Assembly: GCF_947302755.1 (NCBI RefSeq) | Contig: NZ_CAMYWM010000010.1 | Location: 1 to 35,401, forward strand | DNA: 35,401 nucleotides | Source of the DNA: an uncultured Anaerovibrio sp. | GTDB taxonomy: Bacteria > Bacillota > Negativicutes > Selenomonadales > Selenomonadaceae | Direction: 5' to 3' | In this document: positions 18,089 through 32,431 of the stretch, piece by piece | Numbering within the stretch: the first letter of the stretch is position 1 | How the letters are laid out: each line of letters begins with the position of its first letter | Made by a program: the position numbers and the translations under genes | Notes under the pieces: model-generated | Told to the model about the DNA's origin: nothing | Database searches by the model: none | What the model saw: only the letters and a program-made list of their open reading frames with translations

Positions 18089-18892
18089 TTATTTCTGCTC
18101 CTTTTCCTGAGCATTTCCGTCAGCATCAGGTACATCTATAATTTCCAAAATGGCCCTCTTAAATTCCTCGATATCCACCTTGGTATTAAAGCAAGGACCA
18201 TTGGGGCGGATATTCATTACCCCCAGGGTGGGAATTGGATAAACATCCTGGATACCGCTGGCCAAATCCCGTTCACAGGCCACCGCCACCACCGCCTGAG
18301 GGCGAATTTCCCTAACCTTCTGCCGGGCCAGGGTGCCTCCGGTAACCACAAAGAAATGAAAGCCCATCTCCTCTGCCAATGTAACCAAATCGCCAATATT
18401 ACAGCCACCGCACCGTTTACAATTATTGGGGTCAGTGGTTATCTTATGAGGACAGGTGCTAAGCTGCAGGCAATGAGGAGTAACCACCAGCAGCCGGTCC
18501 GCCGGCACCTTTAGGTGGCGATTATGAACAATGGCATTGCTCACTGCCACATAGGAAGCCTCAATGCGTCGCCGATCAATTCCAATGATTTTACCGGCTG
18601 AAATAACAATATAAAATAAAACATTTAACAGCGTATAGGTCTGCTTTTTAAAAACAGAGGGCAATGGCCAGCCCTTGATGCCAAACAGCATTCCCAATAT
18701 ACCAAAACCAATCAAAAACAAAATGCCTATCATGGCAGCGGCAAAGGCCGGAGCCAGATGGGAATTGATATTATTCAGGCCGGGCAGGGTAATAAACCAT
18801 ACCCCTGAGCATACTATCAGCATAATAACATAGGTAATACACAGCAGCCCTATAAATAGCCGTTTTTTCGCCTTTTTAACCGCATAATTCAT
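18089..18892 (-). CDS. DUF116 domain membrane protein
   Basis: A 267-residue protein of unknown function. Three hydrophobic segments lie in the N-terminal half (about 12-34, 44-70, 86-102). A soluble, cysteine-rich DUF116 region (about 100-255) follows, with the conserved clusters PHCLQLSTCPHK, NCKRCGGCNIG, ACERDL and GPCFN. These cysteines suggest an Fe-S or metal centre, which is inference. It lies between fmt and rsmB, as in other anaerobic Firmicutes, so a link to translation or redox control of it is possible but unproven. The last 15 residues are charged and not conserved. Confidence 0.85.
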   Translation of the reverse strand: MNYAVKKAKKRLFIGLLCITYVIMLIVCSGVWFITLPGLNNINSHLAPAFAAAMIGILFLIGFGILGMLFGIKGWPLPSVFKKQTYTLLNVLFYIVISAGKIIGIDRRRIEASYVAVSNAIVHNRHLKVPADRLLVVTPHCLQLSTCPHKITTDPNNCKRCGGCNIGDLVTLAEEMGFHFFVVTGGTLARQKVREIRPQAVVAVACERDLASGIQDVYPIPTLGVMNIRPNGPCFNTKVDIEEFKRAILEIIDVPDADGNAQEKEQK

Positions 18893-20504: not shown

Positions 20505-23500
20505 TTACTCTTTACCGGCCAGTCTCTTGTAATTTTCCAGTCTGGTCTTGGCATCCTTCTGAGTCTTCTCAAAGAGTGCATCAGCCTCATCAGGGAATGC
20601 ACGCTTCAAGCTGTTGTAGCGAACCTCGCCCATGAGGTAATCCTGGAACTTGCTGAAATCAGGCTCCTTGGAGTCAAGGGAGAATGGGTTCTTATCGGTG
20701 CCAACCAGCTCTGGGTTGTAGCGATAATTAGCCCAATAACCACACTCAACAGCACGGCCAGCTTCCATCTGGGACTTGCCCATACCAATCTTGATACCAT
20801 GGTTGATGCAAGGTGCATAACCGATGATAAGGGATGGTCCTGGATATGCCTCAGCCTCAGTAATAGCCTTCAGTACCTGGTTCTTGTCAGCACCCATGTT
20901 AACCTGTGCTACATATACATAGCCATAGGACATAGCCATCATGCCCAGATCCTTCTTCTTGGTCTTCTTACCGGTAGCAGCAAACTGTGCTATAGCAGCA
21001 GTAGGAGTGGACTTGGAAGCCTGACCGCCAGTGTTGGAATATACCTCAGTATCGAATACGAATACATTTACATCCTCACCGGAAGCCAATACGTGGTCCA
21101 AACCGCCGTAGCCGATATCATAGGCCCAGCCATCGCCGCCGAAGATCCACTGGGAACGCTTAATCATGAAGTCGCGGTTATCATAAATCTTGTTGAGCAA
21201 TGGATCGTCGCCCTTCTCAGCCTCCAGGGCACCAATCAGGTTCAGGGAGCGCTCACGGGTACCCTCGCCCAGATTCATATTATCCTTCCAGTCAACCATT
21301 GCATTCTTCAATGCTTCGGAAACCTTGCCGGACTCCAGGGCAGCAGTAACATCAGCAGCCAAAGCCTCACGAACAGCCTTAACGCCCAGGAACATACCCA
21401 AGCCATATTCAGCATTATCCTCAAAGAGGGAGTTAGCCCAAGCAGGACCATGACCCCAAGCATTCTTGGTGTATGGCATTGCAGGAGCAGATGCACCCCA
21501 AATGGAGGAACAGCCTGTAGCGTTAGCTACCATCATGCGGCCGCCGAAGAGCTGGGTAATGAGCTTAGCATATGGAGTCTCGCCGCAGCCTGCGCAGGCA
21601 CCGGAGAATTCCAGGCATGGAGTCTCGAACTGGGAGCCCTTAACAGTGGTCTTCTTCATTGGGTTAGTCTTAGGACTAACCTTTACGCCATAATCAAATA
21701 CAGCCTGCTTGTCAATCTGGGAAGCGATAGGCTTCATAACCAGAGCCTTCTCCTTAGCTGGGCATACGATAGCGCAGTTGCCGCAGCCGGAGCAGTCCAG
21801 AGCAGAAATGGCCATGGTGAAGTTCAGACCCTTGGTACCAAGTGCCGGCTTGGAAGTAAAGCCCTCTGGTGCAGCATCCTTCTCTTCATCAGTAGTAAGA
21901 ACCGGACGGATTGCAGCATGCGGACATACAAAGGCGCACTGGTTACACTCGATACACTTGGTAACATCCCATTCAGGAACATTAATGGCAATACCGCGCT
22001 TCTCATAAGCAGCAGTGCCGGATGGGAAGGTACCATCAGCATGGGCAGCCATCTGCTTAACGGTAATCTTGTTGCCCTCCTGACGGTTAACAGGCTCCAA
22101 AATCTCCTTAACATAAGCAGGAACATCGGCCCGGTCATCAGCGGCAGCATCCTTGGCATTAGCCCAGTCAGCAGGAACATTAACGAGGTGCAATGCATCA
22201 ATACCGGCATCAACAGCACCGTTGTTCATGTCTACGATGTTCTGGCCCTTCTTGCCATAGGAGGTTACAATAGCGTCCTTCAAATAGCCAACAGCCTTCT
22301 GAAGTGGAATAATGTCAGCCAGCTTGAAGAAGGCGGACTGCATTACCATGTTGAAGCGGCCGCCAAGACCCAGATCCTGAGCGATCTTAACAGCATTTAC
22401 AGTGTAGAACTTAATGTTGTTCTTGGCAATGAACTGCTTCATGGAAGCAGGCAGCTTCTCGGACAACTCCTCATCAGACCACAGGGTATTCAGCAGGAAG
22501 GTACCACCTGGCTGGAGACCTGCCAAAAGGTCATACTTATTTACATAAGACTGCTGGGAGCAGGAAATAAAGTTTGCATTATCAATAAGATATGGAGAAG
22601 CGATAGGAGACTTACCAAAGCGCAGGTGGGACATGGTAATACCACCGGACTTCTTGGAGTCATATGCAAAATATGCCTGAGCATACAGATCAGTCTTATC
22701 ACCGATAATCTTGATGGCGGACTTGTTGGCACCTACAGTACCATCGGAGCCCAGACCCCAGAACTTACAAGCAGTGGTTCCCTCAGGAGTGAGGTTAACA
22801 TGCTCCGGATAAAGATCCAGGGAGGTATTGGACAGATCGTCGATGATACCGATAGTGAAGCCGTTCTTTGGAGCGTCCTTCTTCAATTCCTCGAATACGC
22901 CCAGTACCTGTCTAGGAGTAACATCCTTACCGCCTAAGCCGTAACGGCCGCCAACGATCAATGGATGACGATGGCTTGCATAGAAGGCAGTGCGGACATC
23001 CTGATACAGAGGCTCACCAAGAGCACCTGGCTCCTTGGTACGGTCGAGAACAGCAATCTTCTCAACAGTGGAAGGAATAGCCTTCAGGAAATGCTCAACG
23101 GAGAATGGACGGAAGAGGTGAACTGCTACTGCACCAACCTTCTCACCCTTGGCGTTGAGGTAATCAACGCACTCCTGGAGAGTCTGGTTAATGGAACCAA
23201 TAGCGATAACTACGCGCTCAGCATCCTTGGCACCATAGTAATCGAAGATATGATGCTCACGGCCGGTAATCTTGGCCATCTGGCCCATAGCTTCCTCTAC
23301 CAGCTCAGGCAGGGCATCATAAGCCTTGTTTACAGCCTCACGGCCCTGGAAATAAATATCATCATTCTGGGCAGTACCACGAATAACTGGATGATCCGGA
23401 TTCAGGGCATTGCGACGGAACTCATTAACAGCATCCCAGTCAAGGATCTTTGCCAAATCCTCGTAGTCAACCAATTCAATCTTCTGAATCTCATGGGAGG

Positions 23501-24385: not shown

Positions 24386-24462
24386 TGGTCGGAGCAGCAG
24401 GATTCGAACCTGCGACCCCCTGGTCCCAAGCCAGGTGCTCTACCAAACTGAGCCATGCCCCG
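24386..24462 (-). tRNA. tRNA-Pro(UGG)
   Basis: The minus-strand sequence folds as a standard 77-base tRNA with encoded CCA. The acceptor stem is CGGGGCA/TGCTCCG with one G-U pair. The anticodon stem CCTGG/CCAGG encloses the loop CTTGGGA, whose anticodon is TGG, reading proline codons. The T loop is GGTTCGAATCC. It has its own promoter and terminator. Confidence 0.96.
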
Positions 24463-27967: not shown

Positions 27968-30826
27968 TCATTCAGCCTTGTACTTTTTGAATTTGGCAAA
28001 AATTTCATCGATTTCCGGTCCCGTCAGCTGATATTTTTCCACCAGCTTATCAGCCAGGGCCTTGATGGCTCTTTTTCCCTTTTTTACAATCTCCAGGGTT
28101 TTTTCGTATTCCTGCTGAATGATTTCATTGGCCTCATCATAAACCTGCACCGCCGCCGGACTGACAGACAGGGTCTCCAAGGGAATATAGGCCCGCAGCT
28201 TCCTGCCCATGCCCAAATTATTCACCATGAGAACTGCATGAACGGTAGCATTTTCCAGGTCACCGCTAATCCCTGCGTTAATGCCCTCCTTTTCCCCGAA
28301 AAAAGCTACCTCGGCGGCCCGGCCGGCCAGACTGACCCGTATCTTGTCAATATACCACTGACGATTGTAATTTTTGCTGATTTTCTCATTTACCTTGGGC
28401 TTGGTATAACCGCCATATTCCTCCCGCCCCACAATGGTCACAAAGGAGGACTGTTCCCCGGTGAGCCAAAGCATGTATGCATGACCTGCCTCATGAACCG
28501 CCGTGGCAAAATAATTTATTTCCTCCCAATCATGCTTCTGACCAAAGGTCAGCTCATCCAGGGCATCGGACAGAATATCGCTGTCCACCTCCTTTTGCTG
28601 CTTCAAGGCCATACGGGTGGCCAAAGCTATAAATTCATTAATATCAGCAATGCTCTGTCCAAAAACCCGGTCGGCTATGTTATTAATAATCGTATCCGGA
28701 ATGGTGGTAATATCCTTGTTGGCCAGTGCCTTTTTTATTCCTGCAATGCGTTCATCCCTGTCCGGCAGCCGCACGTAAATCTTGTGCTCCAAAAGGTGCA
28801 GCAACTCCGGATCAATATCCGAATTTTCGTCGGAAACTGTGGAATGTGACCAGTTCATTGTACCCACAAACAGCACCGGTGACCCGCAGGACTTAATATC
28901 CTTAATCCCGTTAATAAGCTGTTTAACTGCCCCCAAACCACAGGCCTTTATGAGCAGATCAAACTTTTCTATAAGGATAACCGACGGAGCCTCCCGTATC
29001 CCCTTCTCAAATAAATCCTTCAGAAGGTCACAGGCTCCCTCAGGGGTCAAATCGGCCAACCTGGAGGGGGTAATCATCAACAGAGTGGCATCTCCCTCGG
29101 TGGCCAAGGCCCTGGCCAAGGACACCTTGCCCGCATCGGCCAGACCAAAAAGCAGCACTCCCCCCGGCACACTGTGATACTTCATCACAAAGGCTTCGGG
29201 GTTAACCAGGTATTCCTTCAGATATTTCAAGTCCTCCTTGGCACTGGTTCCACCCACTATATCATCAAAATACCGGGGCTCCTTGTACTCCTCCAGATAT
29301 TCATCCACCGGATCAGGCCCCTTGAGGCTTTCAAAGTCAAAATCGTAAAATATAACCTCAGCCGTTTTTCCATCAGCAGATAATTGCTGGGCTGTACTAT
29401 ACTTTACGATTAGGTCCTCCCGCTGAAGGACATCATAATTCTTTTGAATAAGGGTATCACGGGCAATCAGCAGCAGCTCCGCCTGGGCATGCTCCCGGTC
29501 CACCGACAAATCCACGGTTCCCCGGGCCCCCTTTTGCCTGAAGGTAAAATAATCCGCCATGGTAATGGAATCGTGCTTTATCAGGTATACCGGCAGGGTC
29601 GGCAGATTTTCCCGAATAATTTCAAAGACCCCCAGGCCTACCGAAACCTGGTCATCAAGGCTTAACACGCTGAAGCCCCTATCCTCAACTCCCTCCATCA
29701 AATCCACCACCGCAAAGGACAGACAGGCCTCTGAAAGAATCTTCACCGCCTCATCAATATCCTTGACAAAAATGTAATCCAGATACTCATTATCCAGCAA
29801 ACATTCATATTTTTCCTGATTGGCCACCAATAACACCTGAGGCTTTTCCCTGTAGCTGAACAGGGTGGTCATGGGGCTATCCGCCTCAGGCCGCTCCACT
29901 GTAAAATTAATCCGTTGGATTTTGGTCAGGGCATCCGGCTCCAGATGACGGCTCAGCTCATAAAACTCATTTTTCAGAAAAGCCTTACTAAGGGATAATA
30001 CGGAATTGGCATCAATCATATCACACTGGTTAAACAGGCACAGATTCAGCATATCCGGATCCAGCTCCATATCGTAGCCGTATTCATTTTTAATCTCGGT
30101 GGCAAAATCAAAAAAGCTATGCTCCATCAGCTCCAACAAATGATTGACGGCCATATCCTTGAAGAAAATAATATTCTCATTATTGAAATATTCGTAGAAG
30201 AATATAATGGGAAAATCCGAGTCCTCCAATTCCTTGGCAAAGGACCCCAAAATAACCGACTTAGGCAGCATGGAGCCCAAAGCATCATTTAAATACAGCT
30301 CCGCCCCCACATGGGTTGTGAAAATTATCATGGTTTCCCGGAAGGATATGACCTTCTCATTGGCGGCGTCCACCACCTGACCGGTTTCAATGATCTTGCT
30401 GATGGCTGACACCACCTTGGGACTGGCCTTTTCAATATTCTTTAGGAGCAGAATACCATTGGGATTTTCCTCCACAAACCTGGTTATCCGTCCCGTCTTT
30501 TTGCTGCCGCTTACCGTGTAGACCAGCTCCTTGGCAAAGGGCTCTGCCGCATTCATATCCAGATTTATTTCCAGAATGCTCCGCCCGAGTACATCGGCAG
30601 TAATATGGGCCAGACGGGATTTACCAATACCGGGCGGCCCTGACAGCAAAAAGATATTATGCATTGTTTTAGAGGATGACTCCGGAATAAACTGCCCCTT
30701 GAACACCCCCTGAACGAAATAATGTATGGCCTCATCCTGCCCCATAATGTTGGCGCACAGAGTCTGATACAGCCGTTTTGTGTTCTTGGAAAGCTCCACC
30801 AGCTCCTTTTTCTTATTTCGCTTCAT
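27968..30826 (-). CDS. multidomain M41 (FtsH-like) peptidase with two AAA modules and receiver-like insert
   Basis: A 952-residue protein with no membrane segment. The order is: a ClpB/ClpA C-terminal-type AAA+ module (about 25-300) with intact Walker A GPPGIGKS (63-70) but Walker B altered to LLLKNIEKA (K129, N130 for Asp-Glu); a receiver-like domain (about 328-441) with D375 at the expected phosphoacceptor position but without the acidic pair or the Lys; an FtsH-like AAA module (about 519-700) with Walker A GLADAGKV (561-568), Walker B VILIEK and no Arg-finger GRFDR; then an M41 peptidase with HEAGH (778-782) and the third zinc ligand D856 in SGDLENAT. The peptidase looks active, while the ATPase parts look largely disabled. 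The start follows AAGGTGGTGA. Function unknown; a soluble regulated protease is the simplest inference. Confidence 0.85.
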   Translation of the reverse strand: MKRNKKKELVELSKNTKRLYQTLCANIMGQDEAIHYFVQGVFKGQFIPESSSKTMHNIFLLSGPPGIGKSRLAHITADVLGRSILEINLDMNAAEPFAKELVYTVSGSKKTGRITRFVEENPNGILLLKNIEKASPKVVSAISKIIETGQVVDAANEKVISFRETMIIFTTHVGAELYLNDALGSMLPKSVILGSFAKELEDSDFPIIFFYEYFNNENIIFFKDMAVNHLLELMEHSFFDFATEIKNEYGYDMELDPDMLNLCLFNQCDMIDANSVLSLSKAFLKNEFYELSRHLEPDALTKIQRINFTVERPEADSPMTTLFSYREKPQVLLVANQEKYECLLDNEYLDYIFVKDIDEAVKILSEACLSFAVVDLMEGVEDRGFSVLSLDDQVSVGLGVFEIIRENLPTLPVYLIKHDSITMADYFTFRQKGARGTVDLSVDREHAQAELLLIARDTLIQKNYDVLQREDLIVKYSTAQQLSADGKTAEVIFYDFDFESLKGPDPVDEYLEEYKEPRYFDDIVGGTSAKEDLKYLKEYLVNPEAFVMKYHSVPGGVLLFGLADAGKVSLARALATEGDATLLMITPSRLADLTPEGACDLLKDLFEKGIREAPSVILIEKFDLLIKACGLGAVKQLINGIKDIKSCGSPVLFVGTMNWSHSTVSDENSDIDPELLHLLEHKIYVRLPDRDERIAGIKKALANKDITTIPDTIINNIADRVFGQSIADINEFIALATRMALKQQKEVDSDILSDALDELTFGQKHDWEEINYFATAVHEAGHAYMLWLTGEQSSFVTIVGREEYGGYTKPKVNEKISKNYNRQWYIDKIRVSLAGRAAEVAFFGEKEGINAGISGDLENATVHAVLMVNNLGMGRKLRAYIPLETLSVSPAAVQVYDEANEIIQQEYEKTLEIVKKGKRAIKALADKLVEKYQLTGPEIDEIFAKFKKYKAE

Positions 30827-30859
30827 GAACCATCACCACCTTCTTAATAATGTATATCA

Positions 30860-30894
30860 AAAGGAGTCCCCCATAACCAATCAACGGGGGACTC
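30860..30894 (-). terminator. terminator after the preA-like gene
   Basis: A perfect 9-bp stem GAGTCCCCC (30864-30872) / GGGGGACTC (30886-30894) with a 13-base loop, followed on the minus strand by CTTTT. It lies 5 bases past the stop codon. The U-run is short, so some read-through into the M41 gene 34 bases on is likely, and no other promoter for that gene is clear. Confidence 0.7.
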
Positions 30895-30898
30895 ACCT

Positions 30899-32398
30899 CT
30901 ACTGCTTCTTTACCCTTTTTCCCGAAGACTGTATTGCCCGGGCCTGGCATACCAGAATACACAAATGACAGCCCACACACCTTTTCGGATTAAGTACAGG
31001 CTTCCTGTTTTTTAACACTATAGCCTGATGACCGCCATCGGCACAGGATATCTGACAGCGTCCGCAGCCAATACACTTCTTGAGCAAGAACTGGGGATAT
31101 ACCACTGTATCCCGCTCCAGGCACTCTGTCGTATTACTTACATGGGTCAGGGCTAACCCGACTATCTCCTGGACACTGTTCCTGTTTTGAAGCTTCAAAT
31201 AATATTTAAGGCCGGCCTTCAGATCATCTATAATCCTGTAGCCGTACTGCATGACAGCCGTTGTTACCTGAACCGTCCCGGCCCCCATAAGGATAAATTC
31301 CGCCGCATCCTGCCAGGTTTCAATGCCTCCCATACCACTGATATGGAGATTGGCCAGCTCCGGATTTTTCCCAAGCTCAGCAATAAATCTTAAAGCAATG
31401 GGCTTTACTGCTCTGCCACTATATCCGCCCACTGCCGAAGTCCGTCCCACCGCCGGGCTGGATACATATGTCTCCAAATTTATCCGCATAATGCTCTTGA
31501 TTGTATTGATGGCTGAAATTCCCCTTGCACCCCCTCGCTTGGCGGCCTCCGCCGCCTCACTCATGGTGGCCACATTAGGTGTAAGCTTGGCCAAAACAGG
31601 AATATTCACCCCACGGCAGGCGGCCCTGGTAAATCGTTCCACATATTCGGGACTCTGGCCAACATCTGAGCCCAACCCCTCCTCCATCATATTGGGACAG
31701 GAAAAATTCAGCTCTATGGCATCGGCCCCGTTTTCCTGACACAGTCTGGCCAGCTCCTCCCATTCCTCATCGTTGCGGCCCATAATGGAGGCCAGCAGAA
31801 ATTTATTAGGGTAATCCCGTTTCAGGTCCTTAAAAATTTTCATATTTTCCACAACACTGTGGTCGGACAGCTGTTCAATATTTTTAAACCCCATTATGCT
31901 GCCGCCGCCACCGGTAATGGCCGAATATCTTGGGGACGCCTCACGAATGGCAAAATTACAGATGGTCTTGAAGGAAACGCCGGCCCACCCTGCCTCAAAG
32001 GCCCGGGCGCACATATCATAATTGCTGCCCACCACCGAGGAGGACAACAAAAAAGGATTTTCCAGGGGAATACCGCAAATCTCCGTCTGCAATATATCAT
32101 CATTTGCCAACGCCTCTGCTGTAACCTTAGGCTCTACATTATGCCTCAATCGGTTCATCAGCTTCATTATAGGTACCTTACCGGGACTAATGCAGGCTGC
32201 TTCACAATCACCTGAACACTCCGCGCAATAATTCCTTTCCGGCAGGCCGGCCGCCGCATGATGCTCGCCGCCGAACCATATACTACGCAATTTATCGCCT
32301 GGCTGAAGCTTTGCCGGACAGGCTGCACTACAGGGAGCATCACCGCACAAAGCACAAAACATCATTTCACGCCGTTTGATTGTCGGCTGCAAAAACAT
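30899..32398 (-). CDS. PreA-like dihydropyrimidine dehydrogenase with N-terminal Fe-S domain
   Basis: About 499 residues. The central TIM barrel (about 105-420) resembles the DPD/PreA pyrimidine-reducing domain (SFKTICN, NFSCPNMMEEGLGSDVGQ, LAKLTPNV, SGMGGIETWQDAAEF). The C terminus has two 4Fe-4S motifs, CIGCGRCQISC and CVGCHLCILVC. The N terminus adds a Cys-rich domain (C15, C18, C23, C27, then CAECSGDCEAAC at about 59) like the start of PreT or the DPD N-terminal domain, without the flavin/NAD part. It may reduce uracil/thymine, or a related pyridine/pyrimidine, with electrons from an unknown partner. ATG at 32398 is chosen because GGAG lies 8 bases upstream. It lies 33 bases after the L,D-transpeptidase gene. 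Confidence 0.82.
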   Translation of the reverse strand: MFLQPTIKRREMMFCALCGDAPCSAACPAKLQPGDKLRSIWFGGEHHAAAGLPERNYCAECSGDCEAACISPGKVPIMKLMNRLRHNVEPKVTAEALANDDILQTEICGIPLENPFLLSSSVVGSNYDMCARAFEAGWAGVSFKTICNFAIREASPRYSAITGGGGSIMGFKNIEQLSDHSVVENMKIFKDLKRDYPNKFLLASIMGRNDEEWEELARLCQENGADAIELNFSCPNMMEEGLGSDVGQSPEYVERFTRAACRGVNIPVLAKLTPNVATMSEAAEAAKRGGARGISAINTIKSIMRINLETYVSSPAVGRTSAVGGYSGRAVKPIALRFIAELGKNPELANLHISGMGGIETWQDAAEFILMGAGTVQVTTAVMQYGYRIIDDLKAGLKYYLKLQNRNSVQEIVGLALTHVSNTTECLERDTVVYPQFLLKKCIGCGRCQISCADGGHQAIVLKNRKPVLNPKRCVGCHLCILVCQARAIQSSGKRVKKQ

Positions 32399-32431
32399 CA
32401 CAATCACTCCACTTCAATGGTAAATCAAAAA

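Follow-up and report, generated by a model that had tools for sequence, protein, structure and literature searches.

What kind of machine results when an FtsH-type peptidase loses its membrane anchor and is joined to a Clp-like AAA module, a receiver fold and a second AAA module is the question raised by a gene at positions 27968 to 30826 (minus strand) of the window, the 35,401-nucleotide stretch of DNA analysed here. Contig C10, which constitutes the window, belongs to a 2.66 Mb draft genome of a rumen-type bacterium whose nearest named relatives are Anaerovibrio. The initial annotation had placed a 952-residue protein here without giving a strand, and the open reading frame proved to be real; it encodes 952 aa on the minus strand and starts with ATG, upstream of which the frame stays open for just two codons and the stretch AAGAAGGTGGTGATG is found, a possible ribosome-binding site. 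In comparisons with relatives of 62-90% identity, dN/dS of the whole gene, where computable, was 0.04-0.13 and synonymous sites were near saturation, indicating that the gene is functional and neither a chance open reading frame nor a frameshift fusion. The lowest dN/dS was obtained for the M41 domain (0.01-0.10), and values were low in all other parts too. The gene is thus under strong purifying selection, and the altered AAA and receiver motifs described below are being kept up rather than left to decay freely. A pseudogene was likewise ruled out by the open frame together with the dN/dS values.

A 72-bp gap separates the gene from one encoding a PreA-like dihydropyrimidine dehydrogenase subunit (30899-32407, minus strand). 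This subunit carries about 100 additional, Cys-rich N-terminal residues (CALCGDAPCSAACPAKL), which look as if a portion of a PreT/ferredoxin-type domain had been fused to it. Within the gap, at 30859-30894 (minus strand), a perfect 9-bp inverted repeat, GAGTCCCCC...GGGGGACTC, with a 13-nt loop followed by CTTTT, is probably the terminator of the upstream PreA-like gene, and escaped the scanner, whose loop limit it exceeds. Elsewhere in the window we observed a tRNA gene at 24389-24462 (minus strand; Rfam, 69.5 bits) and, at 18089-18892 (minus strand), a DUF116 protein gene (185 bits) adjoining methionyl-tRNA formyltransferase-like and rRNA methyltransferase-like genes. A 712-aa open frame at 20799-22937 (plus strand), antisense to a pyruvate:ferredoxin oxidoreductase-like gene, is most likely a codon-bias artefact.

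The domain order suggested by the initial annotation, an AAA_2-like module, a receiver, an AAA module and M41, was borne out by Pfam for three of the domains and by predicted structure for all four. Pfam identified AAA_2 at aa 59-178 (49.9 bits, cut-off 27), AAA at aa 557-685 (61.4 bits, cut-off 21.2) and Peptidase_M41 at aa 774-942 (78.8 bits, gathering cut-off 29.9); both AAA families were found in all ten relatives and M41 in nine, the remaining contig being cut. Response_reg, the fourth family that the annotation had expected, was absent by Pfam up to E 10 from this protein and from every member tested, and a Pfam search of aa 185-515 returned no match. Sequence searches gave weak matches to NtrC-type receivers (E 0.3-2, and E 0.006 for one genome), so that the identity of the receiver hangs mainly on predicted structure. 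In an AlphaFold2 model of aa 185-515 (11 sequences, mean pLDDT 78), residues 327-463 gave 110 Foldseek matches at E <= 0.001 with response-regulator receivers on top, and superposed on the LuxO receiver with Z 14.2 and rmsd 2.0 over 117 residues. The predicted structure of this region (29438-29848, minus strand) is a (beta-alpha)5 receiver fold.

The N-terminal module, aa 5-312 (29891-30814, minus strand), had been described as Clp/Hsp100-like, in agreement with its AAA_2 match, its similarity to ClpA (E 1.5e-18) and its modelled fold, for which Skd3, ClpB and ClpC provide matches in their second AAA modules (Z about 24; 293 residues superposed at rmsd 2.8). The receiver is followed by a connector consisting in the model of the end of a long helix and a beta-hairpin (aa 464-505; 29312-29437, minus strand), an FtsH-like AAA module (aa 506-761; 28544-29311, minus strand) and the peptidase (aa 769-945; 27992-28522, minus strand). 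Modelled residues 502-946 matched FtsH with Z 31.1 over 413 residues at an rmsd of 8.5, probably because the AAA and M41 domains are packed differently. The full-length model was built from 24 sequences (pLDDT 75.7) and reached a pTM of 0.41, so that domain packing and ring formation rest on unreliable relative positions. This model pairs part of aa 464-505 with the small domain of the first AAA module. Certain ClpB superpositions of it extend to residue 485, and the receiver may thus, judging from this single model, be inserted ahead of the last strand of that small domain. As previously proposed, no membrane helix was found, the peak 19-residue hydropathy being 1.60, on a Walker B strand, compared to 2.49 for FtsH of the same genome. 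The NCBIfam FtsH_fam score of the protein was 134.8 bits, below the equivalog cut-off of 600, and the N-terminal part scored 66.4 against a cut-off of 993 for the ClpA family, placing the protein by sequence as akin to both families and a member of neither.

The peptidase, which is the most conserved domain, has kept both its zinc ligands and its catalytic Glu. The HEAGH motif (aa 778-782; 28481-28495, minus strand) is present in 10/10 orthologues, and the third-ligand Asp of GDLxxAT, here Asp856 in ISGDLENAT (aa 853-861; 28244-28270, minus strand), is kept in all nine readable ones. HExxH, the third-ligand Asp and a Peptidase_M41 match above the gathering score are the marks of an M41/FtsH peptidase, and with HEAGH intact the mutated or missing HExxH by which FtsHi proteins are recognized is not seen.

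In contrast, the AAA modules, which had initially been taken at face value, have both lost catalytic, arginine and pore residues in the motif table of ten orthologues. In the first module Walker A (GPPGIGKS, aa 63-70; 30617-30640, minus strand) is intact and follows GPPGxGK[ST] in 9/10 orthologues. In L018 (genome G123; aa 62-70 region) it reads GPPKIGKA, with the Ser/Thr lost, and the last canonical nucleotide motif is thus not universal. Walker B of this module (GILLLKNIEKA, aa 124-134; 30425-30457, minus strand) has KN in place of the DE of Clp (DEIEKA) in all ten, the arginine finger is gone from its region, which has FYEYF or FYDYF, Asn, Lys or Ser (DAN/DAK/DAS) stands at the sensor-2 position where the distant relative L067 has the arginine of DAR, and there is no GYVG pore loop. 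The second module has lost the Ser/Thr of Walker A (GLADAGKV, aa 561-568; 29123-29146, minus strand; GxxDAGKV or GKA) in 10/10 and carries Lys or Gln at the catalytic Glu position of Walker B (VILIEKFD, aa 616-623; 28958-28981, minus strand; EK/EQ/DK), again in every orthologue. Neither arginine of LRPGRFDR remains in its second region of homology (SRH; LHLLEHK, aa 672-690; 28757-28813, minus strand), and TPE stands in place of the FVG pore loop. Both modules have thus lost the residues that are required to hydrolyse ATP, to couple subunits through arginine fingers and to grip substrate. Accordingly, of the features of Clp proteins the D2-type AAA fold is retained, while Walker B, the pore loop and the arginine finger are degenerate; of those of FtsH, the N-terminal transmembrane helices, the Walker A and B motifs and the SRH arginines are lost.

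The receiver has been altered as well. Its phospho-acceptor position, D375 (29702-29704, minus strand), is invariant in Anaerovibrio (10/10) and is Lys in L067. Across the ten orthologues the conserved Thr is replaced by Lys, Arg or Gln, the conserved Lys is missing and Ala takes the place of the first acidic residue, leaving the Asp and usually one acidic residue of the canonical DD, D, T, K set. With Thr, Lys and one acidic residue missing, the domain is a pseudo-receiver under the published definition (PMC12632262). The suggestion of a signal-controlled cytosolic protease thus holds for the cytosolic part, given the lack of a membrane helix, whereas for classical phospho-signalling the missing residues make it weak.

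When the whole genus set was searched, the gene was found in 10 of 16 Anaerovibrio species genomes. Nine carriers could be placed in a codon tree built from canonical FtsH; they formed one clade (support 0.996) with the six non-carriers outside it, a pattern accounted for by a single gain, or by a single loss in the sister group. In 380 genomes of the class, from 102 genera, the middle region was not found elsewhere. When other phyla were scanned for close relatives, full-length matches came solely from Anaerovibrio; plasmids and phages yielded no full-length relative at a coverage of at least 80%, phages gave none either when queried with the middle region of L067, and IMG/VR gave no confirmed one. 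The gene does not lie in a conserved operon, as DUF997-panF is found downstream in the subclade of the window and in L017, and the downstream neighbours in L015 and L016 differ. PADLOC returned generic AAA-type matches, leaving a role in defence without support.

A sampled search of the phylum (398 genomes) yielded one relative, L067 of genome G521 (E 3.4e-15 with a profile built without it), and the reverse search with the middle region of L067 returned Anaerovibrio (E 7.6e-11). L067 lies on a contig of a metagenome-assembled genome of another class and is co-linear with the Anaerovibrio protein from residue 9 to 730, the full extent common to both; the contig ends before M41 could appear. 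A continuation of L067 into M41 was not found in this incomplete genome, in which the only M41 protein is an ordinary FtsH. L067 has GPPGVGKT, FDEIEKA and DARS at the matching places of the first AAA module and GPPGTGKT, FIDEID and RRFDR in the second. Given the co-linearity and these intact ATPase motifs, the losses in Anaerovibrio look derived, which suggests that the protein degenerated from an ATPase-active ancestor. At its N-terminus L067 carries some 180 additional residues, which are no more than suggestive of a Clp_N-like domain (Pfam Clp_N, E 0.16; ClpC N-domain, E 0.015). A dCache and HisKA histidine kinase is encoded divergently from the L067 gene (L067:3160-4401, plus strand).

Dead motors combined with a conserved peptidase and solubility probably mean cleavage of unfolded proteins or peptides independently of ATP. 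The reading that we favour, at about even odds, is that both AAA+ modules have been turned into non-hydrolysing scaffolds and that the protein acts as a soluble M41 zinc protease. Against this reading, FtsH-type proteolysis normally requires ATP hydrolysis, and the motif losses would still allow hydrolysis in a complex shared with an active partner. We infer the oligomeric form of the protein, its ATP-independent activity, the role of its pseudo-receiver and its substrates as follows. A ring or stack of the FtsH-like and Hsp100-like modules probably persists above the M41 chamber, perhaps stabilised by nucleotide on the intact first P-loop. The AAA modules would be unable to pull substrates, and peptides or unfolded or flexible proteins would instead diffuse to the M41 sites. 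Alternatively, a partner docked on the pseudo-receiver could bring substrate to M41; docking or dimerisation is the most likely function of the pseudo-receiver surface, similar to the use that ClpXP makes of RssB. Going further, and tentatively, the protein may represent a new class of energy-independent M41 proteases in which a stacked Hsp100-FtsH pseudo-ATPase cage is gated by a pseudo-receiver that senses a cue other than phosphorylation, descended from an ATP-driven Clp-receiver-FtsH fusion that persists in other Bacillota.

If the protein were instead the output of a two-component system, a histidine kinase would phosphorylate D375 and so open or close the protease. The receiver fold and the invariance of D375 in ten of ten orthologues are in line with this, as are the kinase gene adjoining that of L067 and the published remark that phosphorylation sometimes survives changes at DD, T or K (PMC12632262). 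However, the substitutions at the Thr, the Lys and one acidic residue speak against it, L067 has Lys at the position of the Asp despite its kinase neighbour, and no histidine kinase adjoins the gene in the window or at the other Anaerovibrio loci, making phosphorylation an unlikely mode of control. The protein could also be a regulatory subunit that mixes into an active AAA+ ring, of the cell's own FtsH or ClpB, adding a protease to it or modulating it. Pseudo-subunits of this kind are known from FtsHi with FtsH12 (PMC8197885), the AAA folds are kept, and the genome also encodes canonical FtsH and ClpB. On the other hand, without membrane helices the protein has no ordinary seat in an FtsH ring, and its two AAA tiers of unlike type fit the layout of neither FtsH nor ClpB, and we regard such mixing as improbable.

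Given that the majority of the catalytic sites of the protein are lost, and that there are systems whose inactive modules are thought to be binders or decoys (PMC7159879), one might also suppose a substrate-binding scaffold or decoy for which proteolysis is beside the point. The intact zinc ligands and catalytic Glu in the most conserved part of the protein speak against this, and we consider it quite improbable. Loss of the ATPase motifs and absence of the gene from 6 of the 16 genus members would fit a decaying gene. This is hardly conceivable and is refuted by the selection data, as dN/dS is 0.04-0.13 with synonymous sites near saturation, the frame is open in all carriers, and the carriers form one clade.

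Should the reading as an ATP-independent M41 protease be true, the protein would be the M41 counterpart of LonC and a natural test case for FtsH peptidase function with both motors dead, for which L067, with its intact motifs, supplies the matching 'before' state. With the receiver inside the protease chain, it would also offer a tractable, soluble system for pseudo-receiver regulation without phosphorylation chemistry.

The view that no described family has this domain order agrees with text searches of the open-access literature, which turned up no published M41 protein with a receiver and, from bacteria, none in which the AAA modules are dead. FtsH, Yme1 and the m-AAA proteases (MEROPS M41) share with it the succession of AAA and M41, the HExxH motif with the third-ligand Asp and the fold (413 residues aligned, Z up to 31); the present protein, however, has no membrane helices, has lost the ATPase, the pore loop and the SRH arginines, and carries 500 extra N-terminal residues. 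The second AAA modules of ClpB, ClpC and Skd3 share their fold with aa 5-312 (293 residues at rmsd 2.8), whereas the present protein has lost Walker B, sensor 2, the pore loop and the arginine finger and has a protease of its own fused to it, in place of the ClpP used by Clp.

FtsHi is also an M41/AAA protein missing one activity, in the reverse arrangement, being membrane-bound with its ATPase kept and its protease dead (PMC8197885). The FtsH component of MoxR-vWA ternary systems likewise has two AAA modules of which one is inactive; there, however, both are FtsH-type, the N-terminal one inactive and the C-terminal one active, no receiver is described, and the MoxR-vWA operon is absent here (PMC7159879). 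RssB is an atypical response regulator that acts as an adaptor for ClpXP, resembling our case in coupling such a receiver to an AAA+ protease and differing in being a separate adaptor, whereas here the receiver lies within the protease chain (PMC7226468). LonC offers a further parallel, as it is soluble and combines degenerate AAA with an intact protease domain within a family of ATP-dependent proteases. MtaLonC shows the same kinds of AAA+ losses; devoid of ATPase activity, it nevertheless binds nucleotide and assembles into hexamers, and without ATP it degrades proteins that are unfolded but not those that are folded (PMC3391209). LonC differs in its Lon-type peptidase, its one AAA-like module and its lack of a receiver, where the present protein has M41; with these differences, the 952-aa protein would appear to stand to the FtsH-type proteases as LonC stands to Lon.
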